Origin: a virus | Length of the DNA: 34,557 nucleotides | IMG/VR virus record: IMGVR_UViG_3300042892_000080 | Coordinates: 1 to 34,557 of that record | Strand: one strand, 5' to 3' | In this document: in pieces, positions 795-18,413 of the stretch | Position numbering within the stretch: the first letter of the stretch is position 1 | How the letters are laid out: each line of letters begins with the position of its first letter | Position numbers and translations under genes: made by a program | Notes under the pieces: generated by a model | The model's database searches: none | Seen by the model: the letters and a program-made list of their open reading frames with translations, nothing else | What the model was told of the DNA's origin: nothing

Positions 795-800
795 TTTATC

Positions 801-832: not shown

Positions 833-853
833 AAACTAATTAATTTCTAAAAT

Positions 854-1375: not shown

Positions 1376-1400
1376 GTTGTTTTGGTTTTGTATATAGATG

Positions 1401-1462: not shown

Positions 1463-1467
1463 TAGTT

Positions 1468-1842
1468 GTGATAAGATTAATTAAGGGGCAAACCCAAAAC
1501 ATAATACTTACCTTGACTGAGAAGCAGCTTTTAACAAGCCCGAACTATCTATTTATATTTGAGAATAGATCAACAAATACGGACATCAAATTTGTAAGGC
1601 TTAACAATACAGACATAAGCGCATACAAGGAAAGGTACAACGAGTTCACTATTGTAGTTAATAGCTTCTTTAATACGGCTTTAAACGGGCAATACACCTA
1701 CACAATCTACGAGCAGACAAGTACTACCAACACAAACCCGACGGGCTTAAACTTGCTTGAAACAGGCATAATGGAACTTGAGGGTACAACTATATCATTC
1801 ACAGAATACGAAACAACAAGCACATTCACAATTAGACAATAA
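1468..1842 (+). CDS. Small virion-associated protein of unknown role
   Basis: A 124-residue protein with a GTG start; no ATG is available in the N-terminal part. It begins MIRLIKGQTQNIILTLTEKQ and continues with alternating hydrophobic/polar residues typical of a beta-sandwich; the middle part contains YKERYNEF and YTYTIYEQTS. There are no cysteines, membrane segments or enzyme motifs. The stop TAA at 1840-1842 shares its A with the ATG of the portal gene, so the two are translationally linked. I recognise the type from Bacteroidota prophage and phage structural regions, where its function is not known. Head decoration or a connector accessory is possible from position alone. Confidence 0.6.
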   Translation: MIRLIKGQTQNIILTLTEKQLLTSPNYLFIFENRSTNTDIKFVRLNNTDISAYKERYNEFTIVVNSFFNTALNGQYTYTIYEQTSTTNTNPTGLNLLETGIMELEGTTISFTEYETTSTFTIRQ

Positions 1843-3818: not shown

Positions 3819-3820
3819 AG

Positions 3821-4402
3821 ATGAGTTTAAACACATTATTCATAAGCGTACAGAATATTAAAGACCGCTCTGGCTTACACGCTAACGTAGACGAAAAACT
3901 TGTATTGCCTGAAATCAAAACGGCTCAAGATATTTTTATCCTACCGGCTTTAGGAAGTGCTTTATATAACCGACTTCAAGCAGGTATAACGGCTAACAAC
4001 TTAAACGCAAATGAGGTTTTATTGTTAGATAACTATATTGCAGATACTTTGGTACACTATGTACTTAGTGAGTTGCCTATGGGCTTATCGTACCAGTTCT
4101 ATAACAAAGGCTTGTTAAGGAAAGGTGGGGAAAATACCGAGAACCCTTCTATGCAAGATATGATTGACGTGGCTAATAGATATAAGACGCGTGCTGAGTT
4201 CTACAAGCAAAGAATGATTAAATACCTAAAAGAATATTCTACACTTTATCCTGAGTACTTGAACCCTGGTAGTGGCATTGATGCAATACACCCTGAGAAT
4301 GATGCTTACACAACGAGCGTTTGGTTAGGAGATTTTGATTGCTGCGCAGGTAAAAGCTTCGAGGAACTTTATCAAGGGAATAGAGGTTGTAGTGATTGCT
4401 AA
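3821..4402 (+). CDS. Head-tail connector (adaptor-like) protein
   Basis: A 193-residue, mostly helical protein starting two bases after the portal stop. The region IKTAQDIFILPALGSALYNRLQ followed by a helical domain resembles the DUF6712-type proteins placed next to portals in Bacteroidota phages, which by position act like gp6/gp15 adaptors that extend the portal ring. The C-terminus has a Cys-rich end (DCCAG and GCSDC) of unknown purpose. There is no membrane segment. Connector function is inferred from order (portal, this, tail terminator-like) and the helical character; the family assignment is from memory. Confidence 0.55.
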   Translation: MSLNTLFISVQNIKDRSGLHANVDEKLVLPEIKTAQDIFILPALGSALYNRLQAGITANNLNANEVLLLDNYIADTLVHYVLSELPMGLSYQFYNKGLLRKGGENTENPSMQDMIDVANRYKTRAEFYKQRMIKYLKEYSTLYPEYLNPGSGIDAIHPENDAYTTSVWLGDFDCCAGKSFEELYQGNRGCSDC

Positions 4403-4404
4403 TT

Positions 4405-4536
4405 ATGAGTAAAGTAACAACAATAAAAAACCAAAATAAGCTTCGTGTTTATTTAGAAAAAATTAAGAATGAGCCTGACGTTAAACCAAATAACAAAGCA
4501 GATAACAACACTCGGAAACGACCACGAACAAATTAA
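4405..4536 (+). CDS. Small basic protein, unknown function
   Basis: A 43-residue frame starting two bases after the connector stop. It is rich in Lys, Asn and Arg (ends NTRKRPRTN) with a short amphipathic helix RVYLEKIKNE in the middle. It overlaps the next gene by 68 bases in another frame, which makes it less certain, but the close spacing and protein-like N-terminal half favour a real gene. Tiny basic proteins at this spot occur in related phages. Confidence 0.45.
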   Translation: MSKVTTIKNQNKLRVYLEKIKNEPDVKPNNKADNNTRKRPRTN

Positions 4537-4918
4537 CTTTGTTTACTTCGGTGATGTGTGGGAACGTTTGTCTAATGGCGAGGTTACTTACCCTGCTATG
4601 TTCTACACTTTAACAGGTGCAACTATAAACGCTAAAAATATTACTTATAATTTTAGCCTTTATTTTATGGATCGTATGTTAATGGAAGAGACAAACGAAA
4701 CCGAGGTTTTATCGGATATGACTTTAGTAGGTCAAGACATAGTGGCGCAGTTACGTTATCCTAAAGCGATTTGGGATATTGGCGATACTGCACCATTGAC
4801 TTACTTTACTGAAAGCGACCCCGATTACTTAGCCGGAGTTAAGATTGATATTACAATGGAATTACCTTACTTAAATGACAGATGCCAGGTTCCCAGCATC
4901 TATAACTATACAGAATGA
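4469..4918 (+). CDS. Putative tail terminator / tail completion protein
   Basis: A 149-residue protein with alternating helix and strand. The first helix (MSLTLNQITKQITTLGNDHE) is followed by YPAMFYTLTGA and NFSLYFMDRM strands, the outline seen in lambda gpU-like tail terminator and neck proteins. It sits between the connector and the tail fibre gene. Its stop overlaps the ATG of the fibre gene (ATGA at 4915-4918). The start overlaps the 43-residue small frame; the N-terminal helix supports the ATG at 4469. The role is inferred from size, position and fold character, not from a recognised motif. Confidence 0.45.
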   Translation: MSLTLNQITKQITTLGNDHEQINFVYFGDVWERLSNGEVTYPAMFYTLTGATINAKNITYNFSLYFMDRMLMEETNETEVLSDMTLVGQDIVAQLRYPKAIWDIGDTAPLTYFTESDPDYLAGVKIDITMELPYLNDRCQVPSIYNYTE

Positions 4919-7878: not shown

Positions 7879-7896
7879 TAAATAAAATAAAATAAA

Positions 7897-8235
7897 ATGG
7901 CAACAACTTACAAATGGGTAGTTAGTTCTTTAGACAGTTACCCCAAAGACGCAGAAGGTTTAACAGACGTAATCTGCGTAATACATTGGAGATACCAAGC
8001 AGAGCAAGTAGAAAACGATAAAACATACTTTGCAGAAGTTTATGGTACTTTAAGCGTTCCGTCTCCTAACCCTGCGGACTTCGTACCTTATGACCAAGTT
8101 ACATACGAAATGGTATGCGGTTGGTTAGAAGCAGGACTTGACCAAGTATCTTTAGACGAGAACTTAGATATCCAGATTGCAGATCAAATCAATCCTAAGG
8201 TTATATCTTTGCCTTTGCCGTTTCAAAATCCTTAA
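7897..8235 (+). CDS. Fibre-linked accessory protein, unknown function
   Basis: A 112-residue acidic protein. It begins with a beta pattern (YKWVVSSLDSYPKDAEGLTD, then VICVIHWRYQAE) and has a second part YDQVTYEMVCGWLEAGL followed by QIADQINPKVISLPLPF. This layout of one beta-sandwich plus a short helical end is common in a small protein encoded just after tail fibres. It could be a fibre assembly helper or a minor tip protein; nothing in the sequence decides. The leader AAATAAAATAAAATGG is the same as that of the capsid gene and suggests strong translation. Confidence 0.55.
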   Translation: MATTYKWVVSSLDSYPKDAEGLTDVICVIHWRYQAEQVENDKTYFAEVYGTLSVPSPNPADFVPYDQVTYEMVCGWLEAGLDQVSLDENLDIQIADQINPKVISLPLPFQNP

Positions 8236-8262
8236 TATATCTTTACAAATAAAAAACAACGT

Positions 8263-8649
8263 ATGAAGTACAAACAACTATTACAATTAGTAAGCAGCAT
8301 CAATGTCGTTATCGGCAACCAGGACACAAAGACACAAAAGAAGCTTTTTAAAATCTACGAGAAGGTTAAAGCCTATCACGAGGACTATCAAGCAGAAGTT
8401 GAAATTTTGCGTTTAGACAATGCACAAACTGACGATAAGGACTGCTTACTATTAGATGACAAAGGAAATTACAAATTCTCAAAGGAAGGCATCAAGAAGC
8501 TGACTAAAGATATTGAAGCCTTAAATGATAAAGAATTTGATTTTCAAATAATTAACGTAGTCAATCCACAAGGCTTAGAGAATTTTACATTCTTACAAGA
8601 TTGGGTAACTGGCGTAGAATTTAACAAACAAGAAGAAGAAGAACTATAA
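8263..8649 (+). CDS. Small helical phage protein, unknown function
   Basis: A 128-residue, charged protein with long helices (residues 1-50 and 75-100) and an acidic tail ending KQEEEEL. It has no membrane segment or cysteine motif. It lies between the fibre accessory gene and the first lysis gene, overlapping the next start by one base (TAATG at 8647-8651). I do not recognise a function. A candidate -10-like TATCTTTG lies at about 8203-8210, but no TTG is well spaced. Confidence 0.55.
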   Translation: MKYKQLLQLVSSINVVIGNQDTKTQKKLFKIYEKVKAYHEDYQAEVEILRLDNAQTDDKDCLLLDDKGNYKFSKEGIKKLTKDIEALNDKEFDFQIINVVNPQGLENFTFLQDWVTGVEFNKQEEEEL

Positions 8650-8819
8650 TGGGAAATAACCACCAAGCAGACCAATCAACAATCGTTTCTTTAGTAAGTG
8701 CTACTATTAGCATTACAAATATTCAACCACTATTCACATTGATTGCGAGTTTGGTGGCTATTGTTTCTGGTGGTATGGCTATTAGATACTATTACAAAAT
8801 GACCAAAAAGCTTAAATGA
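8649..8819 (+). CDS. Holin-like small membrane protein
   Basis: A 56-residue protein with one membrane segment (about residues 26-46, PLFTLIASLVAIVSGGMAI) and a Lys-rich end (KMTKKLK), the outline of a small holin or antiholin. The start ATG overlaps the preceding stop (TAATG) and its TGA overlaps the next ATG (ATGA at 8816-8819). It is first in a run of envelope-protein genes that includes an endolysin, so a lysis role is likely. A second holin candidate lies at 10784, so it could also be a regulator. Confidence 0.6.
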   Translation: MGNNHQADQSTIVSLVSATISITNIQPLFTLIASLVAIVSGGMAIRYYYKMTKKLK

Positions 8820-9247
8820 GATTAATTCTTTTAGCCTTATTACTTACTTCGTGTGCTTCTGTAAAGAAGGCATCGGAGCGTTTAGATAGCACTGTAGTTA
8901 AGACCTTTGACTCGGTGCGTGTAGTCGTTTTAGATAGCGTAACTAAAATAGTAGAAAAGGAAGAGTATTTTACCAAAACCATTACTTACTACGATACTTT
9001 GTGGGTTACTAAGGATAGTATGATAACAATTCCTAAGTACACGGAAACCTACACAAGAGGCACAAAAGAGAAACAAACCGATAGTAAGCAGACCAAGACG
9101 GACTCAATGGCTCTAAATCGCACAGAAAGTACCCAAATTTCGAAGATAACTAAAACTAAGGATAAGTCCTTTAGCGAATTTTATAAGGCTTTAATCGCGC
9201 TTATATTGATAATTACGCTAATCTTATTCTTTTGGAGACGTAAATAA
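8816..9247 (+). CDS. Unimolecular spanin (u-spanin)-like lipoprotein
   Basis: The 143-residue product starts with a short lipoprotein signal (MRLILLALLLTSCAS, lipobox LTSC with Cys13) and ends with a membrane segment followed by basic residues (ALIALILIITLILFF, then WRRK). Between them lies a charged Thr/Ser/Lys-rich periplasmic stretch of about 105 residues. A lipidated N-terminus in the outer membrane and a C-terminal inner-membrane anchor is the architecture of phage T1 gp11, a u-spanin that fuses the two membranes in the last lysis step. Place in the cassette, coupled by ATGA to the small membrane protein and upstream of the endolysin, agrees. The sequence itself is not similar to T1 gp11 as far as I can see; topology is the evidence. 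Confidence 0.65.
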   Translation: MRLILLALLLTSCASVKKASERLDSTVVKTFDSVRVVVLDSVTKIVEKEEYFTKTITYYDTLWVTKDSMITIPKYTETYTRGTKEKQTDSKQTKTDSMALNRTESTQISKITKTKDKSFSEFYKALIALILIITLILFFWRRK

Positions 9248-9248
9248 T

Positions 9249-9521
9249 ATGGCAAAAGCAGCAAGAAGCGTAAACGTATCGACTAACCCGTTACCGATTT
9301 CATTCAAAGAGTTTAGCAAGAACCCTGTTGTTGGTATGCTATTTTTATGTATATGCGGTATTAGTTACTTGTATATAGACAATGCAAAGCGTAACGAAAA
9401 GCAAGACGATAAGATAGGGGCTTTGTATGAAATGGTGCGCAAAAGTGATAGCAGCAACGCAGCAAGTACGGCTCGTTTGGAAATGGCAGTAGACCTTAAG
9501 GCACTTAAAAGCTTTAAGTAA
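9249..9521 (+). CDS. Single-pass membrane protein with coiled-coil end (i-spanin-like)
   Basis: A 90-residue protein with a polar N-terminus, one membrane segment at about residues 28-45 (VVGMLFLCICGISYLYI) and a charged helical C-terminus likely to coil. This N-in/C-out layout is that of inner-membrane spanins or of holin-associated proteins. It starts one base after the u-spanin-like gene, and its stop shares a base with the next ATG (TAATG at 9519-9523), where a lipoprotein follows. The pair could be a two-component spanin. Function is inferred from topology and neighbours only. Confidence 0.55.
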   Translation: MAKAARSVNVSTNPLPISFKEFSKNPVVGMLFLCICGISYLYIDNAKRNEKQDDKIGALYEMVRKSDSSNAASTARLEMAVDLKALKSFK

Positions 9522-9811
9522 TGCGTTATTTATTATTGGTTGCTTTGATAGGTTGCGGAACTAAAACCGATAATAAAATCAAAGAGTTGCAAGACAAAGT
9601 AAAAGAAAGCCAGGTGCAAAGCGACTCGGTGCAAGTGATGGCGGCTGAGGATAACAAGAAGGTAATTACTAAGACAGTTAATACTATTGTTACTTTAAAG
9701 CAAGAAGTAAAAGAATTAAAAACGGAACTAAATGAAGTTAAGGCTAAATTGGACTCCGCTAATTCTGTTGATACTAATAGCACCAAGTTTCAGCTTCGCC
9801 CAATACGTTAA
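9521..9811 (+). CDS. Small coiled-coil lipoprotein (o-spanin-like)
   Basis: A 96-residue protein with a very short lipoprotein signal, MRYLLLVALIGC, lipobox LIGC with Cys12, followed by a heptad-rich coil (residues 20-80, KELQDKVKESQ and LKQEVKELKTELNEVKAKL). That is the design of an outer-membrane spanin subunit or another envelope-tethering lipoprotein. It overlaps the upstream membrane protein by one base and the downstream gene by 80 bases in a different frame. Positively charged signal start and hydrophobic core are clear. The name o-spanin is inferred. Confidence 0.6.
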   Translation: MRYLLLVALIGCGTKTDNKIKELQDKVKESQVQSDSVQVMAAEDNKKVITKTVNTIVTLKQEVKELKTELNEVKAKLDSANSVDTNSTKFQLRPIR

Positions 9812-10172
9812 GAAGATAGGTGGCGAAGATAAGATTGTTATTAGTAAAGCAGAAGGCGAAAAGATAAACGCTGCGTTTGATAGCGTGAGCAATTTAGTTA
9901 CATTAAGAGAAGCCCGTATTGATAGCTTACTAAGGGCAAACATCAAAACAAGGGATAGCCTTCGCATTGACTTACTTACTTTAAAAGACACCCTTACCCA
10001 ACGCAATAAAATAGTAAACGATACGTTAAACGATTATCGCAATAGGTATTATAAAAACATAGCTATTTACGAGAAGTACGAGAAGGCAGTAGATTTTGAA
10101 ATAAAACTTCACAGGCTTAACTCAGTTCTATTCGCTATGCTAACATTATTTTTATACTCTCAAATAAATTAA
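9732..10172 (+). CDS. Secreted coiled-coil protein with C-terminal hydrophobic end, unknown lysis-cassette role
   Basis: A 146-residue protein whose first 24 residues form a good Sec signal (TPLILLILIAPSFSFAQ, cleavage likely before Gln). A long charged helix follows (ARIDSLLRANIKTRDSLRID to DTLNDYRNRYYKNIAIYEKY), and a short hydrophobic stretch (SVLFAMLTLFLYS) sits at the end. It would span the periplasm with a C-terminal membrane contact, resembling a spanin without lipid. The signal peptide is encoded within the 3' end of the preceding lipoprotein gene in another frame, a nested layout recalling Rz/Rz1. The endolysin starts two bases after its stop. Confidence 0.6.
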   Translation: MKLRLNWTPLILLILIAPSFSFAQYVKKIGGEDKIVISKAEGEKINAAFDSVSNLVTLREARIDSLLRANIKTRDSLRIDLLTLKDTLTQRNKIVNDTLNDYRNRYYKNIAIYEKYEKAVDFEIKLHRLNSVLFAMLTLFLYSQIN

Positions 10173-10173
10173 A

Positions 10174-10773
10174 ATGAATTTAGAAGCAATTAAGACAAAG
10201 ATACCTGCAAATGTATTAGAACAAATACCAGATATTGAAGCAAAGTTTGGCTTGAATAGTAATATTAGGTTAGCACATTTTTTATCTCAATGCGCACACG
10301 AAAGCGGAAACTTTAAAGTATTTACGGAAAATCTTAACTATAGTGCTAAAGGTCTAAGGTCTATTTTTGGCAAGTATTTCAAAGACGATGCTTCTGCACT
10401 TGCTTTTGAAAGGAAGCCTGAGAAGATAGCCAATAGGGTTTACAGTTCAAGAATGGGTAACGGAGACGAAGCAAGTGGGGACGGGTGGAAATTTAGAGGC
10501 CGTGGCTATATTCAATTAACAGGCAAAGATAATTACAGTCAGTTTGACAAATCGGTTGAAGATGATATTTTAGCTAACCCAGATTTAGTAGCTACAAAAT
10601 TCCCTTTGATGTCGGCTGCATTCTTTTTTGAAAGGAACAACCTATGGAAAATTTGCGATGGCGGTGCTGACAAAGAAGATGTTATTGCTCTTACAAAGCG
10701 CATCAATGGGGGAACTCACGGACTTGAAGACAGATTAACAAAATTTGCTTTATTCAATTCTTTACTAAAATAA
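10174..10773 (+). CDS. Endolysin, glycoside hydrolase family 19
   Basis: A 199-residue GH19 (chitinase/lysozyme-like) enzyme that cleaves the glycan strands of peptidoglycan. The catalytic helix motif AHESGNF places the acid Glu at residue 43; a second Glu follows in FTENLNYS (52). Family landmarks are YSSRMGNGDEASGDGWKF, then RGRGYIQLTGKDNY, and the C-terminal LTKRINGG with LEDRL. There is no signal peptide, so export must rely on a holin. Length matches single-domain phage GH19 endolysins. It lies between spanin-like genes and a holin-like gene. Confidence 0.93.
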   Translation: MNLEAIKTKIPANVLEQIPDIEAKFGLNSNIRLAHFLSQCAHESGNFKVFTENLNYSAKGLRSIFGKYFKDDASALAFERKPEKIANRVYSSRMGNGDEASGDGWKFRGRGYIQLTGKDNYSQFDKSVEDDILANPDLVATKFPLMSAAFFFERNNLWKICDGGADKEDVIALTKRINGGTHGLEDRLTKFALFNSLLK

Positions 10774-10783
10774 AATATATACT

Positions 10784-11002
10784 ATGAAATGGTTAGCCAA
10801 TTTATTAGCAGACGAAAGGGGTTCGGTATCTACAAAGCGAGTAATTGCTTTACTATCGGCTTTATTTATCTGCATTACCTTATTAGCTAATAGCTTTACA
10901 CATCAAGAGATTGCCCCTTCGGATAAGCTTGTAGATGCCGTAATGGTTATTTGCATAGCTGCTATGGGTACTACAACTATAGATAAATTCAGCCAAAAAT
11001 AA
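10784..11002 (+). CDS. Putative holin, two membrane segments
   Basis: A 72-residue protein with membrane segments at about residues 20-38 (VIALLSALFICITLLANSF) and 47-64 (LVDAVMVICIAAMGTTTI), a basic N-terminal stretch and a charged end. It starts ten bases after the endolysin stop. Two helices, both ends likely cytoplasmic, match class II holins, which open the inner membrane for an endolysin lacking a signal. The 56-residue protein at 8649 competes for this role. Confidence 0.65.
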   Translation: MKWLANLLADERGSVSTKRVIALLSALFICITLLANSFTHQEIAPSDKLVDAVMVICIAAMGTTTIDKFSQK

Positions 11003-11005
11003 ACA

Positions 11006-11740
11006 ATGCTAAAATCAAAACGCAAACGCCTATTCTTTGACATTGAAACCTCTCCCAATGTTGGCTTTTTCTGGAGTGCCGGATATAAGTTAAACATCAC
11101 ACCGGATAGCATAATTCAGGAACGTGCAATTATTTGCATCTGTTATAAGTGGGAAGACGAAAAAGAAGTTTACCATTTGGAATGGGATAGTAAACAGAAT
11201 GACAAACGTATGCTGCAGAAGTTTATTGAAGTAGCAAACACGGCATCGGAGTTAGTAGGACACAATGGCGATAAGTTTGACTTAGCGTGGATAAGAACCA
11301 GGTGCTTATTTCATAAAATTGAGATGTTCCCTTCTTATGTTACTATTGACACGCTAAAGGTAGCAAGGCAAAAGTTTAGATTTAATAGCAACAAGCTTAA
11401 TTACATAGCTGACTATTTAGGAATTGGCACTAAAATCAAAACCGAATATAGTTTATGGAAGGACATTGTTCTGCATAAGGACAAAGTAGCTATGGCTAAA
11501 ATGATTAAGTACTGCCAAAAAGACGTTGTTTTATTAGAGCAAGTATTTAACGCACTTAAAAATCACATAGAACCTAAAACACATTACGGAGTTATCTTCG
11601 GACAAGACAGAGGCTCTTGCCCTGAATGTGGGAGCGACGATCTAATTATTTCACTTCGTAGAACAACCGCAACCGGAGTAAAGAAAATATCGTACAAGTG
11701 CAAAACTTGTTTTAAAATGCATAGCAAAACCGACAAATAA
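11006..11740 (+). CDS. DEDDy-type 3'-5' exonuclease with C-terminal zinc ribbon
   Basis: A 244-residue RNase H-fold nuclease. Exo I is RLFFDIETS (Asp12, Glu14), Exo II is VGHNGDKFDLAWI, and Exo III is KYCQKDVVLLEQV, with the Tyr-x-x-x-Asp spacing of DEDDy enzymes such as DNA polymerase B exonuclease domains and YprB. A C4 zinc ribbon closes the chain (CPECG, then CKTC about 30 residues later), probably for nucleic acid binding. There is no polymerase domain, so it is a stand-alone trimming or processing enzyme. It starts three bases after the holin-like gene and ends directly before the next ATG. Confidence 0.85.
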   Translation: MLKSKRKRLFFDIETSPNVGFFWSAGYKLNITPDSIIQERAIICICYKWEDEKEVYHLEWDSKQNDKRMLQKFIEVANTASELVGHNGDKFDLAWIRTRCLFHKIEMFPSYVTIDTLKVARQKFRFNSNKLNYIADYLGIGTKIKTEYSLWKDIVLHKDKVAMAKMIKYCQKDVVLLEQVFNALKNHIEPKTHYGVIFGQDRGSCPECGSDDLIISLRRTTATGVKKISYKCKTCFKMHSKTDK

Positions 11741-11944
11741 ATGGATAGTAAAATTCTTAGCTTAGTAATTGAAGATATGCGCAGCCGTGAGCAAGTAGGT
11801 AAAAAGAAGTACAACTGCACAATGGATCGTGAAGATTTAAGTACAGGCGAATGGATAACACATTTGAAGCAAGAACTACAAGATGCAATACTTTACCTTA
11901 CTAAACTTGAACAGATACACAATGCGCCTCAAAAAGATATTTAG
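11741..11944 (+). CDS. Small helical protein, possibly MazG-like
   Basis: A 67-residue protein with a charged first helix and a second part TMDREDLSTGEWITHLKQEL followed by DAILYLTKLEQ. The pattern of a small helical unit with E-W-x-x-H-x-x-x-E and an L-D-A-x-x-Y-L end resembles short phage proteins related to nucleotide pyrophosphohydrolases. A full MazG metal site cannot be seen, so activity is uncertain. It abuts the exonuclease gene without a gap and overlaps the acetyltransferase gene by 23 bases. Confidence 0.5.
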   Translation: MDSKILSLVIEDMRSREQVGKKKYNCTMDREDLSTGEWITHLKQELQDAILYLTKLEQIHNAPQKDI

Positions 11945-12350
11945 CTTCGGCAATATATTAGACCGAGATGTCTACGAGCAACTTAGGGAATTAGATTATA
12001 CTAACCCAAACTTTAAGGGTTGCGCTGACGAGTTCCAGTTTAACCGGGAGTGGTGGGTTATCTTAGATCAAGGGGAAATAGTTGCTTATTGCGGATCAAT
12101 TTATTCCAAAGGCATTTGCATATTTAATAGAGCGTGGGTTAAAAAATCACATCGAGGGCAGGGCATACAAAGACGAATGATTAAGACCAGGTTAAAGGCT
12201 GCATCTACTTTTTGCCATATAGCTATTACTTACACAACCTTAGACAACTTCCCTTCAGCTAATAACCTTATTTCGTGTGGGTTTAGGCTTTACCTACCGG
12301 AGTATTCATACGGGGGTTCTGACAAACTTTACTTCCAAAAGTTACTATAA
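11922..12350 (+). CDS. GNAT-family N-acetyltransferase
   Basis: A 142-residue protein with the GNAT acetyl-CoA loop at SHRGQGIQRRMIKTRLKAA and the following helix; the preceding strand CIFNRAWVKKS and the closing LISCGFRLYLPEY also match the fold. It should transfer acetyl from acetyl-CoA to an amine of unknown identity. The start at 11922 leaves a 23-base overlap with the previous gene; an earlier ATG at 11883 adds 13 residues and a 62-base overlap, which is less likely. It is the last gene before the non-coding control region. Phage GNATs sometimes modify DNA, tRNA or host proteins, but nothing here shows which. Confidence 0.75.
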   Translation: MRLKKIFSFGNILDRDVYEQLRELDYTNPNFKGCADEFQFNREWWVILDQGEIVAYCGSIYSKGICIFNRAWVKKSHRGQGIQRRMIKTRLKAASTFCHIAITYTTLDNFPSANNLISCGFRLYLPEYSYGGSDKLYFQKLL

Positions 12351-12374
12351 AAGGTAGTAATACTACTACTTTTG
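12349..12374 (+). terminator. Possible weak terminator or operator hairpin
   Basis: GTAGTA (12354-12359) and TACTAC (12361-12366) form a perfect inverted repeat around one base. A longer pairing of AAAAGGTAGT with ACTACTTTT (one bulge) is also possible. It lies directly on the stop codon of the last gene of this block. The T run is short, so termination is uncertain. Confidence 0.4.
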
Positions 12375-12510
12375 TCTGCATTTTACTTATGACTTTGGCA
12401 ACTTTTACCCTCACTTTTGTACGTATTTAAGTACAACTATACGTATAAATAGCACAATCTAAAGTGCAATTAAGTCGGTAATTACCATCATTACATACTA
12501 TTTTTTGACA

Positions 12511-12534
12511 TAATGTGCTATAAAATGCACATTA
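12511..12534 (+). repeat. 8-bp inverted repeat, probable operator
   Basis: TAATGTGC (12511-12518) and GCACATTA (12527-12534) are exact reverse complements around an 8-base AT spacer (TATAAAAT). The dyad spacing suits a dimeric DNA-binding protein. The candidate early promoter begins about 95 bases downstream. Confidence 0.55.
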
Positions 12535-12608
12535 ACTCGTGTTTTTGTCCTATGTAAAACCCATTATTTGCATCATTGTTGCAAAAATAATTTATATAAT
12601 TTTACACT

Positions 12609-12634
12609 TTGTATTGTTAATTGTAGTATATTTG
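12609..12634 (+). promoter_or_regulatory. Candidate early promoter
   Basis: TATATTTG at 12627-12634 is a perfect TANNTTTG element. The nearest upstream TTG (12609-12611) is only 15 bases away, shorter than the usual 17-23, so the -33 part is weak. The first early gene starts at 12651, 17 bases downstream, giving a leader of roughly 10 bases. Confidence 0.55.
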
Positions 12635-12650
12635 TTGAAACAAAACACAA

Positions 12651-12857
12651 ATGACACATTTAACCAACTACCAGAAGTTCCAATTCGAGAGATTTGGCAC
12701 TATCTTACTGCAAGACGGGAGCAGTACACAAAACCCGTATGATCCAAAATTACTGCCTAAAAACTACGATTACGAAGATGATGATTACACCTTCACTCGT
12801 TGGGTTGAAAACAATGCAGAACTTGAACTTTTAAAAAACGAATTATATGAAGATTGA
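12651..12857 (+). CDS. Small acidic early protein, unknown
   Basis: A 68-residue acidic protein with a central DYEDDDYTFTRWVENNAELE and a helical acidic end. It has no recognised motif. It is the first gene after the control region, directly downstream of a candidate promoter, so it is probably expressed very early and could interfere with a host function. A competing frame starting at 12539 runs through the promoter and was not accepted. It overlaps the next gene by 11 bases. Confidence 0.6.
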   Translation: MTHLTNYQKFQFERFGTILLQDGSSTQNPYDPKLLPKNYDYEDDDYTFTRWVENNAELELLKNELYED

Positions 12858-13044
12858 ATTTGTAAAAGAAACTAAGCCAGACGGCACAATTTTCTACTAC
12901 ACTTTAGTAGATAACAAATACGATAGCGCAAGTATGTACTTGGAATATTCTCAGGCTTACGAGTACTTTTTAAGCCTAAAGAAAAGACAAGAACCTATTA
13001 TCGAAATTTTAGAACACTATTCAATAGACACTCAAAACAAATAA
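12847..13044 (+). CDS. Small early protein, unknown
   Basis: A 65-residue protein with a beta start (MKIEFVKETKPDGTIFYYTL) and a helical second half with many Tyr residues (YLEYSQAYEYFLSLKK). No family is recognised. It overlaps the upstream gene by 11 bases and the next gene starts two bases after its stop, so it belongs to the same early transcript. Confidence 0.6.
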   Translation: MKIEFVKETKPDGTIFYYTLVDNKYDSASMYLEYSQAYEYFLSLKKRQEPIIEILEHYSIDTQNK

Positions 13045-13046
13045 CA

Positions 13047-13268
13047 ATGGATAATCAAATACAAAACTTATTAAACTTAGGTATAAATTTAAACAAATTT
13101 TATTCTATACAAGTTCAATCTTGCGACATAATACTACAAGGGTGGGTAACAAGTTCCTTAATGAATGATCTAAATGTATTAGGGTATGAGTTTGATTATG
13201 ATAAAGAAAATAATTGGTTTCTTTGTAGAAAAGGAAACGTAAGAATTGTCTTAACTTTAAACTATTAA
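13047..13268 (+). CDS. Small early protein, unknown
   Basis: A 73-residue protein with beta-hairpin-like strands (YSIQVQSCDIILQGWV, then NWFLCRKGNVRIVLTLNY) around a helix. No motif is recognised. It is AT-rich compared with the ERF gene that starts two bases after its stop. Spacing suggests co-transcription with the recombination protein. Confidence 0.6.
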   Translation: MDNQIQNLLNLGINLNKFYSIQVQSCDIILQGWVTSSLMNDLNVLGYEFDYDKENNWFLCRKGNVRIVLTLNY

Positions 13269-13270
13269 TT

Positions 13271-13804
13271 ATGAGCCTAATAAAAATACAACAGGAATTA
13301 AAAGCACCTAAGAACCAATTTAACGCTTTTGCTAAATACAAGTACCGAAGTGCAGAAGATATAATCGAAGCTGCAAAACCTATCTGCCATAAGTACGGCT
13401 ATGCTTTAATGTTAAGCGACGAGGTAATAGAAGTAGGCGGTCGAGTTTATGTAAAGGCTACGGCTTGTCTAAATAACGGAGAGGATAACATAACTTGTAC
13501 CGGGTTAGCGCGTGAAGAGGAAAACAAAAAAGGTATGGACGCTTCACAGATTACCGGAGCAGCAAGTAGCTACGCCAGGAAGTATGCTCTTAACGGACTC
13601 TTTGCCATAGACGATACCAAAGATGCAGATGCTACTAATGAGCATAAAGACGAAGTAAGCGAAGGACAAAAATCTTTCTTGATTGAAGCACTTGATAAGA
13701 CAAAGTTTACTCAGGAACAAAAGTATAAGGCTATCGAGAAAATCAAAGCTATCAAGACCTTAGACGAATTTAACAAGATTAAAGAAACAATAAAGAAAAG
13801 CTAA
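13271..13804 (+). CDS. ERF-family single-strand annealing protein
   Basis: A 177-residue protein. The first 120 residues match the ERF superfamily: an N-terminal FNAFAKYKYRSAEDIIEAAKP, a central strand VKATACLNN and the signature GMDASQITGAASSYARKYAL followed by GLFAIDDTKDAD. ERF proteins form rings on ssDNA and promote annealing for recombination-dependent repair or genome circularisation. The C-terminal 55 residues are a small helical domain. It lacks a partner exonuclease of the lambda type, but the DEDD exonuclease at 11006 and the VRR-NUC at 16488 could cooperate. Its stop shares a base with the next ATG. Confidence 0.9.
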   Translation: MSLIKIQQELKAPKNQFNAFAKYKYRSAEDIIEAAKPICHKYGYALMLSDEVIEVGGRVYVKATACLNNGEDNITCTGLAREEENKKGMDASQITGAASSYARKYALNGLFAIDDTKDADATNEHKDEVSEGQKSFLIEALDKTKFTQEQKYKAIEKIKAIKTLDEFNKIKETIKKS

Positions 13805-14043
13805 TGAGAGACCTGTTACCATTTGAAAGGCAGATGCTACTTGCTGAGATATATCACTACGCTTGGTATAACGAAGAGGCATACGCTGACCTTTTATTAT
13901 TCATAGAAAAATATCAAAACCTTTTAGACAAACCTGTATTTTTAACCCAAATCAATAACAATGACACAGAAACAACAAATCTTGAACCACTTGCTTACGG
14001 GCAAAACCTTGACACCAATCCAGGCTCTAACGAAATACAATAG
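13804..14043 (+). CDS. Small protein, unknown, 3' end nested with HTH gene
   Basis: A 79-residue protein whose first 50 residues look like two aromatic-rich helices (LPFERQMLLAEIYHYAWYNE, then DLLLFIEKYQNLLDKP). The remaining 28 residues overlap the next gene in another frame and look like low-complexity filler, so the useful part is the N-terminal half. It starts within the ERF stop codon (TAATG). Function unknown. Confidence 0.5.
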   Translation: MRDLLPFERQMLLAEIYHYAWYNEEAYADLLLFIEKYQNLLDKPVFLTQINNNDTETTNLEPLAYGQNLDTNPGSNEIQ

Positions 14044-14167
14044 CCTAAGATTAGCAGCCGTAGTGTTTGAATTAAAACGCAAAGGCTACAAAGTACAGAC
14101 GGAATTAATTAACGTAGGTACGAAAAAACAAAGTAAATTAGTAGCTAAATATTCAATTAAAAAGTAA
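13961..14167 (+). CDS. Helix-turn-helix protein (HTH_39-like)
   Basis: A 68-residue DNA-binding protein. TQKQQILNHLLTGKTLTPIQ followed by ALTKYNSLRLAAVVFELKRK and the wing GYKVQTEL match the small winged-helix domain that many phages encode near replication genes. It could be an early regulator acting on the dyads at 12351-12650, though no direct link is visible. It overlaps the previous gene by 83 bases in another frame and ends on a TAATG junction. Confidence 0.7.
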   Translation: MTQKQQILNHLLTGKTLTPIQALTKYNSLRLAAVVFELKRKGYKVQTELINVGTKKQSKLVAKYSIKK

Positions 14168-14403
14168 TGAATCTATATACAGAAGAACAATTAGTATATG
14201 CTATGTCATTAGCTGCAAGTGGTGATTATTATTTGTATTATGAAATATTACAAAAATTAAACCCAATAAAATTACCAAGTAATGAAGAAATTAATAATTT
14301 TGAATTTCATTATACAGATGGTGAAAATATAATAAAAGCTTGGAAAGAAGGGGTAGAATGGGCGCTTAATGAAATACTTAATCAAACAATTAAAAACAAA
14401 TAA
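14167..14403 (+). CDS. Small protein, unknown, AT-rich
   Basis: A 78-residue protein with helices at both ends (EEQLVYAMSLAASGDYYLYY and IIKAWKEGVEWALNEILNQ). No motif is recognised. Its base use is clearly more AT-rich than the neighbours, which suggests a more recent arrival. It is joined to the HTH gene by TAATG, and the next gene starts two bases after its stop. Confidence 0.6.
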   Translation: MNLYTEEQLVYAMSLAASGDYYLYYEILQKLNPIKLPSNEEINNFEFHYTDGENIIKAWKEGVEWALNEILNQTIKNK

Positions 14404-14405
14404 AA

Positions 14406-14600
14406 ATGGAACAAAAAAAATGGAGTGCAGGTGCTTGGAAAAAGCAAACCACTAAAGGAGAAGTAATTAATTTTACAATCAATGATGTTAAGTATTCAAT
14501 GTGGGTTAATGCTTACAAGACAGAGGATAAGCAACCAGATTACAAGATTTATGTAAATGATTTCAAACCTAAAGAAGACACGGAAGGATTGCCGTTTTAA
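14406..14600 (+). CDS. Small protein with SSB-like C-terminal tail
   Basis: A 64-residue protein. The first 50 residues form a strand-rich unit (KGEVINFTINDVKYSMWVNA, then YKIYVNDF) that could be a minimal OB-like fold. The last residues EDTEGLPF resemble the acidic tail ending in (D)LPF by which bacterial single-strand binding proteins recruit replication and repair partners. It sits between an HTH gene and a DnaA-like gene. It may bind ssDNA, or mimic the SSB tail to attract host proteins. The tail is visible; the function is inferred. Confidence 0.55.
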   Translation: MEQKKWSAGAWKKQTTKGEVINFTINDVKYSMWVNAYKTEDKQPDYKIYVNDFKPKEDTEGLPF

Positions 14601-14602
14601 TT

Positions 14603-15031
14603 ATGCTAACTAAAAATAGAGATGTTTCAATAAGACAACTAAAGGAGTTGTACTATGCTCAACGTAATACCCACGTTAAATTGCACGAAATGATGTCGCA
14701 GTTAGGGTTGTTAGGCATAGAAGACAACGAGCCTTTAGGTGCGGATATAGGTGCGAGAAGCATCGTTAAATTAGTTGAAGAGGTATTTGAATGCGATATA
14801 TCAAGAAGGGATAGATCATTAAGAACTACCTTTGGTCGCAAGGCTGCTGCATACTTACTCAGAAGGTACACTAAATTGAACCTAAAAGAGATAAGCGCAT
14901 ACACCGGCACTAAAGACCATACCACCGCAATTCACAATATCAAACAAGCAAACAACCTAATTGACACAGAAGATTGGTTTAAGGACAAATTAAAAAGAAT
15001 TTGCCAAAAGATTGAAATTACCGAAAATTAG
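14603..15031 (+). CDS. DnaA domain IV-like DNA-binding protein
   Basis: A 142-residue protein. Residues about 74-115 (SLRTTFGRKAAAYLLRRYTK, then LKEISAYTGTKDHTTAIHNI) match the C-terminal domain of DnaA, including the G-x-x-D-H-T-T signature that contacts DnaA boxes. There is no AAA+ ATPase domain and no room for one; the first 70 residues are a separate helical part. It may bind an origin and recruit or block host DnaA. It starts two bases after the SSB-tail gene and ends just before a strong promoter. Confidence 0.8.
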   Translation: MLTKNRDVSIRQLKELYYAQRNTHVKLHEMMSQLGLLGIEDNEPLGADIGARSIVKLVEEVFECDISRRDRSLRTTFGRKAAAYLLRRYTKLNLKEISAYTGTKDHTTAIHNIKQANNLIDTEDWFKDKLKRICQKIEITEN

Positions 15032-15041
15032 TTTATATTTG
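15012..15041 (+). promoter_or_regulatory. Strong Bacteroidota-type promoter
   Basis: TTG at 15012-15014, a 19-base spacer and TATATTTG at 15034-15041 match the consensus TTG-N19-TANNTTTG exactly. It overlaps the 3' end of the DnaA-like gene. Start of transcription is expected near 15046, about 100 bases before the next ATG, leaving room for the structured RNA. Confidence 0.75.
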
Positions 15042-15043
15042 CA

Positions 15044-15138
15044 AATATATAAAAATACATTAACGGAAGTCCAGACGATAATGTGTTTAGTGGTTAAATA
15101 ATAGCCCCTGGTAGCTGGACTCTATTGGGGGCTTTTTT
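15044..15138 (+). ncRNA. Structured leader or small RNA with pseudoknot-capable terminator
   Basis: Helix A pairs AGTCCAG (15068-15074) with CTGGACT (15115-15121), seven perfect pairs. Helix B pairs AGCCCCT (15103-15109) with GGGGGCT (15127-15133) and is followed by a T run at 15133-15138, so B is a terminator. The order A-B-A'-B' means both can form only as a pseudoknot, or else they compete. A small TTTA/TAAA hairpin lies between A and B. A strong promoter directly upstream makes this either a free small RNA of about 95 bases or an attenuator for the DUF1376-like gene at 15147. I do not recognise an established RNA family. Confidence 0.7.
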
Positions 15139-15146
15139 ATTTTATT

Positions 15147-15872
15147 ATGGCAAAAGACCCTGCATTCCTATTTTATAGCAGTGATTTCTTAAACGGAGTA
15201 GCTGACTTAACAATGGAAGAGAGAGGACAATTTATTACTCTCTTATGTTTACAACATCAAAAAGGTACACTTACAGACAAAACCATTAGGTTATCTTTAG
15301 GTTCGGTTTCGGTTGATGTTTTGAGCAAGTTTTTAAAAGACAAAGACGGAAATTTTTACAACGAACGGCTAAGTGAAGAGATTGAAAAACGCATTCAATT
15401 TACTGAAAGCCGTAGAAACAATGGCTCTAAAGGTGGTAGACCTAAAAATAACACAAAACCATTAGGTTTAGCTAAACATAACCTTATGGAAGATGTAAAT
15501 GAAAATGAAAATGAAAATATAATTATAAATAAAAGTAAATGTACTTTTGAGCAAGTTTACGAATATATGTCAATCCGGATAGGAACAGATCAAGCAAAGA
15601 TTGAAGCTGAAAAATTTGTAAATTACTATGAAAGTAATGGTTGGAAAGTAGGGAAAAACCCTATGAAAAGTTGGGGAGCAGCCGCAAATAATTGGATAAC
15701 AAACTCTAAACAATATGCAAAAGGAACTACAAACAATCAACGAAAGCTTGATAAAAACGAACTCGAGAACCTTAAAAACTACAACTATATCCACTCTACT
15801 TCCTATGGAGCAGGAGATTATGACCGCATTTTCGGGGGAACGAATGAGGAACATAAACTCTACCATATTTAA
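15147..15872 (+). CDS. DUF1376-like phage replication protein
   Basis: A 241-residue protein. The N-terminal 90 residues (AFLFYSSDFLNGVADLTMEE, then RGQFITLLCLQHQKGTL) match the DUF1376/YdaU domain found at the start of phage replication initiators. A Lys/Asn-rich linker with NNGSKGGRPKNN follows, and the C-terminal part has YYESNGWKVGKNPMKSWGAA with NNWI, a signature of DnaT/replisome organiser-like ends. It likely binds the origin and loads a host helicase. It is expressed downstream of the terminator RNA, so readthrough may set its level. Confidence 0.75.
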   Translation: MAKDPAFLFYSSDFLNGVADLTMEERGQFITLLCLQHQKGTLTDKTIRLSLGSVSVDVLSKFLKDKDGNFYNERLSEEIEKRIQFTESRRNNGSKGGRPKNNTKPLGLAKHNLMEDVNENENENIIINKSKCTFEQVYEYMSIRIGTDQAKIEAEKFVNYYESNGWKVGKNPMKSWGAAANNWITNSKQYAKGTTNNQRKLDKNELENLKNYNYIHSTSYGAGDYDRIFGGTNEEHKLYHI

Positions 15873-16473
15873 GCAGAACCTTATTTACCTTATGCAGCTT
15901 GTAGGTATTAACAATCCTGGAGATGTTAAGTTGGCCGTTTTAGAGGATTGGATAAGAACTGAGTACGGGAACTTTACAATAAACGAAGTTAAAGTAGCGT
16001 TTAAGCAAATGGTAGCAAATGACTTTATAGATCACTACCAGAACTTTAGCCCTGCATACTTTAGTCAGGTAATGGATAGGTACAAGAAAAAAGCAAACGA
16101 AGTAAGAAAAATGATGCCACAAGAACGAGTAGAAGCAATACCACACTTAACCGATTTAGAGATAATTGATTACTCTTACCAAGAATATAAGCTTTTAGAA
16201 AATAGAACTTTTGACAGGTTGTTTAACCCATTGAGCGTATTTACAAAGCTTAATAGTTCAGGCATCAAGGTATGGACTAAAGAAGATGGCGCACTTGCTA
16301 AAAAGAAACTTATGGAGATTATTACCTACAAAGCTAATAAAATGGACATCATAAGCGCAAAGCAGTACCGGGACGAATGGACTGAAAGTTGGCTTAAAAA
16401 CCAAGCAAGAGCAGTAGCCGTAGCTTTATTTTTTGAGGATCAAATAAAAATTGGCAAAGTTTCGTTTTCTTAA
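15820..16473 (+). CDS. Replication-region protein, possible helicase-loader partner
   Basis: A 217-residue helical protein with NPGDVKLAVLEDWIRTEYGN followed by FTINEVKVAFKQMV, NFSPAYFSQVMDRYKKKA and a C-terminal VAVALFFEDQIK. I know similar proteins beside replication initiators in Bacteroidota phages, without an assigned function. The start at 15820 overlaps the preceding gene by 53 bases. ATGs at 15805 or 15844 are also possible, and an upstream frame from 15715 adds residues that look non-coding. No Walker motif is present, so it is not an ATPase. Confidence 0.6.
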   Translation: MTAFSGERMRNINSTIFKQNLIYLMQLVGINNPGDVKLAVLEDWIRTEYGNFTINEVKVAFKQMVANDFIDHYQNFSPAYFSQVMDRYKKKANEVRKMMPQERVEAIPHLTDLEIIDYSYQEYKLLENRTFDRLFNPLSVFTKLNSSGIKVWTKEDGALAKKKLMEIITYKANKMDIISAKQYRDEWTESWLKNQARAVAVALFFEDQIKIGKVSFS

Positions 16474-16483
16474 TATAGTTTTG
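16451..16483 (+). promoter_or_regulatory. Candidate promoter before the nuclease gene
   Basis: TAGTTTTG (16476-16483) matches TANNTTTG, and TTG at 16451-16453 lies 22 bases upstream, within the known range. The next ATG is at 16488, so a transcript from here would be leaderless or nearly so. Confidence 0.4.
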
Positions 16484-16487
16484 TAAT

Positions 16488-16793
16488 ATGACCGCAAACG
16501 AATTAACCAAACAAGCAATCCAAACTCTAAATAAAAATGGGTGCTTTGTATGGCGCAATAACAATCTTGCGGTTAGAGGTCGAACCTTTATAGGTCTAAA
16601 AGGAGTTCCAGATATAGTAGGTTTTCACACTCAAACAGGAGTAGCGGTATATTGCGAAACAAAAGCTATAGGAGATAAACTTAGCAGCTACCAAATATCA
16701 TTCTTAAACTTAGCAAAAACGGCTAATTGTTTTTGTTACATAGCAACCGAAGATAACGGCAAACTAACCTTAAAAGAATATGAACAAGAATAG
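16488..16793 (+). CDS. VRR-NUC domain nuclease
   Basis: A 101-residue PD-(D/E)xK enzyme of the VRR-NUC type, related to Holliday-junction and flap nucleases. Active-site residues are Asp42 in GLKGVPDIVGF and Glu57/Lys59 in YCETKAIGDKLSSYQISFL, where the Gln also belongs to the family pattern. It is the length of stand-alone phage VRR-NUC proteins. It likely resolves branched intermediates made by ERF-driven recombination before packaging. It overlaps the next gene by 14 bases. Confidence 0.9.
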   Translation: MTANELTKQAIQTLNKNGCFVWRNNNLAVRGRTFIGLKGVPDIVGFHTQTGVAVYCETKAIGDKLSSYQISFLNLAKTANCFCYIATEDNGKLTLKEYEQE

Positions 16794-17256
16794 CATCATA
16801 TTAGAACTTTGGGAGAGCCGAGAACTAAAGGAAGCAATAGATAAAATGCAGCCTGAAGATTTACGAGAAGATTTAAGAAGCGAAATATTTAAGGTGCTAT
16901 GCGAAATGGAAGAGGAACGAATAATAGATATGCGCACCCGTAACGTATTAAAGTTCTACTTAGTTAGAACTATGATTAATATGATGCAAAGTAATACAAG
17001 CCAATTTTACAGGACATACCGCAAACCTTTAGAGGTTGAATTAATAGTACACGATAGGGACGAGGACTTACTTAACAAAGTAGAAGACGAACTATCCAAG
17101 ATGCACTGGTACAAAGCGGAACTATTGCGAGTGTATGCTATTAAGCACAACTGCAACGCTAAAGAACTTAGTAGGGTTACAGGAATACCTTATATGTCAA
17201 TACATAGGGAACTTAAATTAACTAAACGAGAACTTAAAAAACAATTACGCAAATGA
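16780..17256 (+). CDS. Sigma-factor-like HTH protein
   Basis: A 158-residue protein. The N-terminal half is acidic and helical (LREDLRSEIFKVLCEMEEER). The C-terminal 45 residues (ELLRVYAIKHNCNAKELSRV, then TGIPYMSIHRELKLTKREL) form a helix-turn-helix like sigma-70 region 4, and the middle part RNVLKFYLVRTMINMMQS recalls region 2 in short phage sigma-like proteins. It may redirect host RNA polymerase to late promoters. It overlaps the nuclease gene by 14 bases and the next gene by an ATGA. Confidence 0.65.
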   Translation: MNKNSIILELWESRELKEAIDKMQPEDLREDLRSEIFKVLCEMEEERIIDMRTRNVLKFYLVRTMINMMQSNTSQFYRTYRKPLEVELIVHDRDEDLLNKVEDELSKMHWYKAELLRVYAIKHNCNAKELSRVTGIPYMSIHRELKLTKRELKKQLRK

Positions 17257-17486
17257 TAATTATAGCAGCGATATGCTTTGCAATATTCTTTATAGAGATA
17301 CACCAATTCCATAGAAAATGGTATTTAGATTTTAAGCCTTTTAGTTGCACGAGTTGTTTAGCAGCTTGGACAGGTTTGATTTTATATTTACTACCTGCAA
17401 TATGTACTGACATCATAGCGTTTGTATTTATTCCGGGAGTGTTAGCACCTTTACTTTCAAAAATTATGTGGAACTTATGGAAATAG
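17253..17486 (+). CDS. Small membrane protein with CxxC, DUF1360-like
   Basis: A 77-residue protein with an N-terminal membrane segment (IIIAAICFAIFFIEI), the motif FKPFSCTSCLAAWTGLILY with a Cys-x-x-Cys pair, and a further hydrophobic part. The K-P-F-x-C-x-x-C-L-x-x-W-x-G pattern recurs in small phage membrane proteins and in DUF1360. Role unknown; thiol chemistry or metal binding is possible. Start overlaps the sigma-like gene stop by ATGA. Confidence 0.6.
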   Translation: MIIIAAICFAIFFIEIHQFHRKWYLDFKPFSCTSCLAAWTGLILYLLPAICTDIIAFVFIPGVLAPLLSKIMWNLWK

Positions 17487-17725
17487 AACACCGCAACTTT
17501 TTAGATCAACACATTGGTAATTGGCATACAGTACAGAATGGCTATGTGCGAAATATCGATTTGGACATCTTAAAAATGTATGAGCATATATATCGCAAGT
17601 ATATGAACCCAGATTTCATATTGACAGTATGGTGCAGCCATTGTATTTTCGATATGATTAAAAGGCTTTACGAATGGTACGATATACAACCACAACCAAA
17701 GAAAAAAAATGCAAAGGGTAATTAA
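17477..17725 (+). CDS. Small protein, unknown
   Basis: An 82-residue protein rich in aromatic residues (FLDQHIGNWHTVQNGYV, then WCSHCIFDMIKRLYEWYD) with one Cys-x-x-Cys pair. The ATG at 17477 gives a 10-base overlap with the gene before; a GTG at 17468 is an alternative. It overlaps the PP-loop enzyme gene by 17 bases. Function unknown. Confidence 0.6.
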   Translation: MEIEHRNFLDQHIGNWHTVQNGYVRNIDLDILKMYEHIYRKYMNPDFILTVWCSHCIFDMIKRLYEWYDIQPQPKKKNAKGN

Positions 17726-18413
17726 TTTTAGCGGTGGCAAAACTTCTGCTTATATGACTATCCAAGAATATAAGCCAGGAGACATAGTATTGTTCTGCGA
17801 TACTATGAGGGAACACCCTAAAACATATAAATTCATTAATGACTTTGAGGCCTTTGAAAATATACCAGTAACAAGAATAAGTTACGAAGGTGGCTTTGAC
17901 GGAATGTTAAAAAAGAATAAAGCATTACCTAATCAATTCAAAAGGTTTTGCACAATAGAACTAAAGATTAAAACGGCTAAAAGATATTTAAGAACCATAG
18001 GAGTAAGAGAATTTGAAAACCTGGTAGGCTTTAGATATGACGAACCAATGCGAGTTAGCAGACGTACTCAAAGATTTAAGAAGGTACACGATAAGTTCCC
18101 TTTGTTTGAAAGCAAAGTTACTAAGCAAATAGTAAATGAGTATTGGAGCAAAAAGCCTTACAATTTGGAAATACCTTCTATATTAGGTAATTGCACTTTG
18201 TGTTTTATGAAAGGTAAAAACGCTATCTTAGCAATATTAAGGGAGTTCCCAGAACTTGCAGACGAATGGATCAATGACGAAAAGAATAGCAAATACACTT
18301 ACTTTAATGGCGTAACAATAGAAACACTTAAAAGTATATCACAGAATAATTTGTTTAAGGAATTTGATTTAGATAACATTAACCCTGCGTATGACTGCGC
18401 TTGTACTACTTAA
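17709..18413 (+). CDS. PAPS reductase-like PP-loop enzyme
   Basis: A 234-residue protein with the N-type ATP-pyrophosphatase motif SGGKTSA at residues 8-14, followed by the typical IVLFCDTMREHPKTYKFI. Cysteines in RFCTIELK, NCTLCFMKG and the final CAC could hold a metal or iron-sulphur cluster. Members of this superfamily activate sulphur chemistry: PAPS reduction, tRNA thiolation, DNA phosphorothioation (DndC). Which applies here cannot be read off, and no Dnd partners are present. It is followed at once by sugar-modifying genes. Confidence 0.8.
   Translation: MQRVINFSGGKTSAYMTIQEYKPGDIVLFCDTMREHPKTYKFINDFEAFENIPVTRISYEGGFDGMLKKNKALPNQFKRFCTIELKIKTAKRYLRTIGVREFENLVGFRYDEPMRVSRRTQRFKKVHDKFPLFESKVTKQIVNEYWSKKPYNLEIPSILGNCTLCFMKGKNAILAILREFPELADEWINDEKNSKYTYFNGVTIETLKSISQNNLFKEFDLDNINPAYDCACTT

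Follow-up and report, generated by a model that had tools for sequence, protein, structure and literature searches.

We start from the gap between two genes at positions 15032-15146 of the IMG/VR virus record IMGVR_UViG_3300042892_000080 (positions 1-34,557; this whole 34,557-nucleotide (nt) stretch is what we call the window), which is filled by one unit on the + strand: a promoter, a hairpin (H1), a linker, a terminator hairpin (H2) and a T tail reaching as far as the next gene's ATG. The upstream gene (14603-15031, +) encodes a protein of 142 amino acids (aa) with the helix-turn-helix of DnaA domain IV (Bac_DnaA_C, 43.6 bits), and the promoter sits at its end. The first gene after the leader (15147-15872, +; 241 aa) is DUF1376-like and primosomal-protein-like (20.1 bits against a Pfam cut-off of 30.1; PHROG primosomal protein, E about 1e-8), and its ATG lies immediately past the T tail, ahead of a replication-type gene as an initial annotation, made from the letters alone, had proposed.

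The promoter (15012-15041, +) has a -33 TTG at 15012-15014 and, after a spacing of 19 nt, the -7 element TATATTTG at 15034-15041, an arrangement that by sequence fits the -33/-7 consensus of Bacteroidota promoters as given in the available parts of PMC6847099. Because the F. johnsoniae consensus of that source places the final G of its -7 box at -5, transcription is predicted to start at 15046, the same position that the initial annotation had named; TAnnTTTG as a -7 element also appears in the part of PMC9723704 at hand. On the opposite strand TATATTTG occurs at 15041-15048 of the window and is missing in listed relatives such as L013. Downstream of the start, the fold gives H1 (15054-15087, +) with 9 + 2 pairs around one mismatch and a 10-nt loop that contains segment A (AGUCCAG, 15068-15074, +). 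The linker (15088-15102, +), single-stranded in the fold, belongs to the conserved stretch ATGTGTTTAGTGGTTAAAT. H2 (15103-15133, +), found by the fold and by a terminator scan, is an intrinsic terminator hairpin of 12 pairs (15103-15114 with 15122-15133), and its entire 7-nt loop is segment A' (CUGGACU, 15115-15121, +), complementary to A at 7/7 positions. The T-rich tail (15134-15146, +) reaches the ATG at 15147, with the 3' end of the RNA expected near 15138.

How do these pairings relate to each other? The single-sequence fold of 15046-15146 (-27.9 kcal/mol, z -2.95, with 2/200 shuffles equally stable) predicts both hairpins, and H1, H2 and A:A' are mutually compatible, so that all three are able to form together. 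As predicted from the sequence, A:A' is a loop-loop (kissing) helix that joins H1 to the terminator H2, a pseudoknot between two hairpins. In 68 of the 69 aligned relatives described below, folds in which A:A' is forced into an ordinary nested helix are less stable by 2.9 to about 16 kcal/mol; in L179 the two tie. The initial annotation had described a promoter and a pseudoknot-capable terminator RNA with helices in the order A-B-A'-B', which might alternatively compete. Sequence, fold and the conserved A:A' pairing uphold the promoter and the pseudoknot-capable terminator, and the coordinates of A, A' and the terminator stand; H1 had been overlooked, A lying in its loop rather than bare, and competition between two helices finds no support, since the loop-loop helix is conserved along with H1 and H2 and the nested alternative is the weaker one in nearly every relative.

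The conservation can be followed in loci that were collected without regard to the linker. A search of viral contigs with the downstream protein gave 459 relatives; the best 80 of the 459 were kept and examined, and all 80 have the RNA, with the linker directly ahead of the ATG and TTTAGTGGTTAA present in 80/80. A scan with the linker pattern added at least 120 stretches, and 188 linker occurrences (a contig may count repeatedly) were reduced to 69 distinct RNAs with enough flank and a recognisable ATG, which form alignment A1; because relatives were added through the linker pattern, the invariance of the linker in A1 is by selection. The A and A' loops are Watson-Crick complementary at 7/7 positions in 91 of 92 distinct 140-base stretches and at 6/7 in the other, and six types of kissing sequence occur among these 92 distinct relatives. 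With the pseudoknot included, 99.1% of the 1951 cells of A1 are paired. Eleven pairs changed on both sides compared with 9.0 in shuffled alignments, and 225 such cells compared with 73.7, counts that are no probabilities because the rows of A1 are related; the covariation score is 0.354 against 0.147 when shuffled and at most 0.086 when slid, and the number of "further pair types" falls below the shuffles (23 versus 26.6). Helix by helix, the kissing helix is 99.8% paired with 5/7 pairs changed on both sides and zero G-U cells, H1 is 99.3% paired with three pairs changed on both sides, and H2 is 98.3% paired. The compensatory changes in homologues on which the initial annotation had staked its proposal are thus present in A1, and we regard the conserved anatomy, the complementary loops and the structure of the leader RNA as strongly supported by these comparisons.

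Of the 1468 stem cells in A1, 182 are G-U. The opposite strand would have A-C at these places, and the RNA is therefore the + strand. The same count bears on the notion that the locus is a DNA element, an origin or operator for the DnaA-like protein in which the RNA fold is secondary. Its location just downstream of the gene with DnaA domain IV and ahead of replication-type genes would suit such an element, as would TTTAGTGGTTAAA with its short inverted ends; the G-U cells on one strand, the promoter, the T tail and the polarity all speak for an RNA instead, and the window has four DnaA-box-like sites (one mismatch), none of them nearby. We give the DNA element hardly any credence.

Relatives collected through other genes carry the RNA as well. 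The search with the DnaA-like protein gave 205 relatives, and the linker is found in 76 of the best 80 of these 205 loci; of the other four, three contigs end in or just past the gene and one, L283, has a diverged copy. Among the matches listed in a terminase search (80 loci), 74 were scanned, six already-known loci being left out; model R1 has 20 matches in the 74, and the linker is present in 19/19 of the scanned loci with a DnaA-like motif visible. When looser relatives were sought by the linker pattern, one of 31 stretches (L374, from the same contig as L283) was a member by covariance model, which was searched against 51 sources; L283 is a diverged copy of the RNA, linker included, in which the H1 stem has been re-paired (89.2 bits as L374).

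We turn to what the arrangement implies for the gene behind it. The promoter TATATT[TC]G stands 7-15 nt ahead of H1 in 101/101 distinct relatives, despite varying distance, and TAnnTT[TC]G was found inside the RNA in none of the 69 aligned relatives. In each of these 69, H2 lies between the sole recognisable promoter and the start codon, with the stem ending 7-15 nt from the ATG. The next gene therefore seems dependent on readthrough, which would make H2 an attenuator if the gene has no further promoter that escaped recognition. The reading that we favour, with belief and doubt about equal, is a leader RNA that attenuates transcription, is built as a kissing-loop terminator and would also yield an RNA of ~93 nt. 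Transcripts from the leader promoter, plus any from the upstream genes, would cross H2 before the next gene, so that H2 would limit the expression of that gene; some would end near 15138 and leave the compact ~93-nt RNA, and others would read through. Since A' is transcribed before the 3' arm of H2, H1 could capture A' during transcription, and the kiss would then alter the timing or the efficiency of termination at H2, in either direction. The function that we infer for the leader is, most likely, to time or limit the expression of the replication operon during infection.

Several points weigh against this attenuator. No conserved antiterminator was found, a terminator may work quite unaffected by the kiss, the next gene could be driven by a promoter that was not recognised, and the descriptor with which we define a wider class below was tuned on seen examples. 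Endonuclease genes also stand directly behind the RNA in some relatives, so that replication genes are not the ones under control in every case; the control of replication suggested by the initial annotation would apply where replication-type genes follow the RNA, and would not cover these loci or those elsewhere in which other genes follow the same architecture. One may instead picture an unregulated, insulated terminator whose 3' end is strengthened or nuclease-protected, with the kiss merely stabilising it. Both hairpins are compatible with the kiss and the loops drift freely while pairing, as this picture would have it; a strong terminator right ahead of an ATG would silence the following gene, and the linker is conserved though a terminator does not need one, and we consider it improbable.

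The genes behind the RNA are diverse. The 101 distinct complete downstream proteins comprise 75 DUF1376-like, 11 that start with MAKRFTDTEK, 6 of Lin1244 type, 8 HNH and 1 GIY-YIG-like; the MAKRFTDTEK proteins have no Pfam family above cut-off, and phrog_15768 is common to them and the DUF1376-like ones. Because differing, non-homologous genes can stand behind the RNA, it is not tied to one protein. The kissing types are common to several downstream gene kinds and to two allele groups of the upstream gene, and the mixing is not free: one DUF1376 kind occurs solely with TTCGCAG, TTCGTAC or TTCGTAG (143 rows, including overlapping loci). These observations bear on a riboswitch or protein-binding leader, in which the conserved linker would be the sensor and the kiss the switch. 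The linker is indeed kept in 80/80 loci although single-stranded in the fold; the genes behind the RNA are neither ligand-related nor homologous, no similarity to a known riboswitch was seen, and the linker is not kept in other phages with this architecture. Such a leader appears very improbable to us, and the metabolite sensor contemplated by the initial annotation is not borne out, with six kissing sequences, non-homologous genes behind the RNA and nothing that points to a ligand. In L117, L123, L112 and others, endonuclease genes of HNH and GIY-YIG type separate the replication gene from the RNA, which gives the impression of homing genes inserting exactly past the T tail of the RNA.

For the window at large, the terminator scan gives nine terminator-like sites in 1-18000, among which H2 has the most pairs (12). 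Such sites are no more numerous than in shuffles (9 versus 11.8 in 1-18000, and 10 versus 10.8 in the rest), and the case for H2 therefore rests on conservation and not on the scan. At 1400-1425 there is another good intrinsic terminator, of 10 pairs and likewise with a TTTTTATTTT tail, for which the descriptor finds no loop partner. Counts of sigma-70 promoters in the window are at chance level, and a tRNA search found none. The ends of the window (1-180 and 34378-34557) are identical at 168/180 positions, which may mean that the record joins two variants of a genome that is almost complete and closes into a circle.

The next question is whether the same plan exists with other letters. A scan with a Lin1244 protein gave 78 loci, of which model R1 matches 42, and a selection of the remaining ones was inspected. 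The plan recurs in unrelated sequence ahead of the ATG in L582 (GTCGGAT/ATCCGAC), L583 (GTCGCAT/ATGCGAC), L584 and L616 (both GTCAGAT/ATCTGAC), whose linkers have AACTTATT in common, also in L599 and L613, and by eye in L590 and L594. Individually these are mostly not significant (shuffle p 0.04-0.18; 0/300 for L599). No such leader was seen at the Lin1244 gene of L591, L592, L595-L598, L601-L603, L606, L609, L614, L617, L622 and L632; L600, L611 and L612 are left out of both lists. The terminator of the four loci with AACTTATT has an internal loop, with AG(A/C)TGAA on its 5' side, between the outer stem and the kissing hairpin, which is perhaps a candidate binding site. A family-2 linker pattern gave two matches in 395 genomes, both coding-like by eye. 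Lin1244 genes themselves occur in bacterial genomes at 22 places in 12/395 genomes, and in one of these (G074; L633, L645, L654) repeats of type TTCACCACGCTGA that look iteron-like precede them.

A more general count is possible. The viral DNA that we collected has 17 terminators ahead of ATGs outside the window group, and 9/17 have a complement of at least 7 nt to the 75 nt upstream where 2.2 are expected (one element, in L155, is counted twice). A descriptor consisting of promoter, 5' hairpin, complementary loop, terminator, T tail and ATG was run on 1.71 Mb of non-redundant viral DNA, collected partly through this RNA, and gave 32 matches in the window group and 28 elsewhere. At a score of at least 14.5 there are 16 others against 1 reversed and 2.6 shuffled, and at a score of at least 12 there are 28 others against 8 reversed and 8.8 shuffled, controls that are not blind because the descriptor was written after earlier trials and by-eye examples. 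Of the earlier versions one was too strict (it missed the window leader) and one too loose (506 real versus 460 reversed); the final one misses L590 and L594. Three of the 16 others (L381, L359 and L136) have the look of chance matches, and a single L372 element accounts for two of the 16; between L372 and L378 both loops differ and complementarity is kept. The linker is not conserved across these phages.

We also scanned 403 kb of ten Bacteroidota phages, a choice guided in part by earlier matches (16 of 44 kb for Freya_1 and 50 of 71 kb for phi18:3). The descriptor gives 7 matches at a score of at least 16, compared with 0 reversed and 0.1 shuffled, this threshold having been chosen from the score table afterwards; at 14.5 or more it gives 7 compared with 3 and 1.1, and at 12 or more 16 compared with 15 and 7.4. 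The matches are six distinct elements in six of the ten phages. Polaribacter phages Danklef_2 and Freya_1 have one element in common (98% identical), downstream of DnaA-like and NTP-PPase genes and ahead of a 'transcriptional regulator', and in Freya_1 also of a 'DNA replication protein'; Freya_1 has a second element ahead of Freya1_46. Further elements are those of Flavobacterium phages 11b and 6H, of Riemerella phage RAP44 and of Cellulophaga phage phi18:3, the last ahead of gp007 and gp006 'DNA replication protein'. FPSV-S1, P12024L and 1/32 have no element at 13.5 or above, and P2559S has two matches, at 14.2 (consistent by eye) and 14.4 (inconsistent by eye). Five decoy promoters of similar frequency give 0, 2, 2, 0 and 0 matches against the 7, and both non-zero results include the 11b element. 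In Flavobacterium phage morran9-1 the plan is seen by eye upstream of a DUF1376 gene.

The Riemerella phages add a third partner. Three alleles have a perfect 14-nt A:A' while their letters differ, and each has an 11-12-nt copy of A that begins from the G of the start codon, so that the ATG reads into A, and that changes with A and A'. The loci are L667 (about 30570-30372, minus strand), L669, L670 and L671 (415-640); in phage 6H the copy of A at this place is 7 nt long. Judging from the Riemerella phages, A' may in some phages cover the start codon as well. These copies of A would also suit a free small RNA acting in trans, whose seed would be the terminator loop A', masked by A until an A-like target displaces A, and for which the neighbouring gene is incidental; the discrete promoter-to-terminator unit agrees with this. 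At the window ATG there is no copy of A, nor is there one of at least 6 nt in 16 other matches tested; the pairing of the linker to the window's gene starts is no better than shuffled (25/100 shuffles as good), and the T tail adjoins the ATG in each aligned relative. We judge the trans-acting RNA unlikely, and keep it beside the cis leader as one of two main readings, the pair that the initial annotation had offered. A trans seed in the linker had first been suggested by eye, its complement being often ahead of a start codon among chance linker-pattern matches in viral contigs, and was dropped: the pattern with a following ATG occurs at 67 places against about 143 in the reversed control (a hand tally in 295 genomes of one class), and its pairing to start regions within the phage is no better than shuffled. 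The motif TTAATTAACCACTAAA is seen by eye shortly ahead of the start codon in unrelated contigs (L360, L361, L363, L367, L369, L372, L381, L385), and TTAACCACTAAA-ATG is not enriched in the 295 genomes. One record, OQ791282, named Shigella phage Henu10, matches a 221-base Riemerella phage query at 100%, and may thus name the wrong host.

Further phages of the phylum Bacteroidota have this design in other letters, and this points to a type of viral gene switch not described so far. Tentatively, and leaning somewhat against it, we propose for Bacteroidota phages a general RNA class set by architecture and not by sequence, in which the loop of a start-site hairpin would kiss the loop of a leader terminator with a private 7-14-nt code per copy, some copies being three-way with A at the AUG; it could serve as an insulated, recodable operon-timing switch or as an immunity-like code between coinfecting relatives. 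With a loop pair of its own, each element would not disturb the others. The recurrence in cultured phages makes the mechanism testable now.

How does this leader compare with known systems? At the gathering score Rfam has 0 matches in the window and 0 in 14 other sources (the best below threshold is PyrR, 22.2 versus 54 bits, E 0.45), in keeping with the initial annotation, which could name no established family. In purine-type kissing riboswitch aptamers two hairpins of one RNA are likewise joined loop to loop; here one hairpin is an intrinsic terminator, and a junction aptamer is lacking. The put RNA of HK022, an antiterminator that acts on RNA polymerase, is also a two-hairpin phage leader near a promoter, and is set apart by its description, since the second hairpin here is itself a terminator. 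According to the available portion of PMC4825925, IsrK of Gifsy-1 is a phage leader that gives a short, terminated RNA as well as an mRNA made by readthrough, and in satellite phage P4 complementary RNA segments (CI RNA and seqA) control termination ahead of replication genes; a loop-loop pair between first hairpin and terminator is the feature seen here that sets our leader apart from what that portion describes, the sequence relation being compared via Rfam only. In the open-licence papers that were searched, RNA-level control of this kind is undescribed for Bacteroidota phages.

The closest likeness is to the pT181 and pIP501 attenuators, as the accessible part of PMC5703833 presents them: a terminator directly ahead of a replication gene, in an untranslated leader controlled by RNA-RNA pairing. 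The window has such a terminator in the leader of a gene similar only to primosomal proteins (H2 15103-15133, ATG 15147). In these plasmid systems the leader pairs with an antisense RNA made from the opposite strand, and a pre-emptor pairs with the 5' arm of the terminator, whereas here both partners lie in one RNA. The 5' arm of H2 occurs in three forms; inspection of A1, with no dedicated search, shows no segment that changes in step with them, and the linker is constant across all three. Because no pre-emptor is seen we do not file the leader under pT181. Orthogonal loop codes are, from the sequences, a plausible further likeness. What defines the class proposed here is found at the locus, namely a 5' hairpin loop complementary to the terminator interior, a promoter before and a T tail and ATG after; a terminator loop complementary to the first hairpin of its own transcript is compact as a design, has a code that can be exchanged, and is a possible source of orthogonal transcription switches for Bacteroidota.
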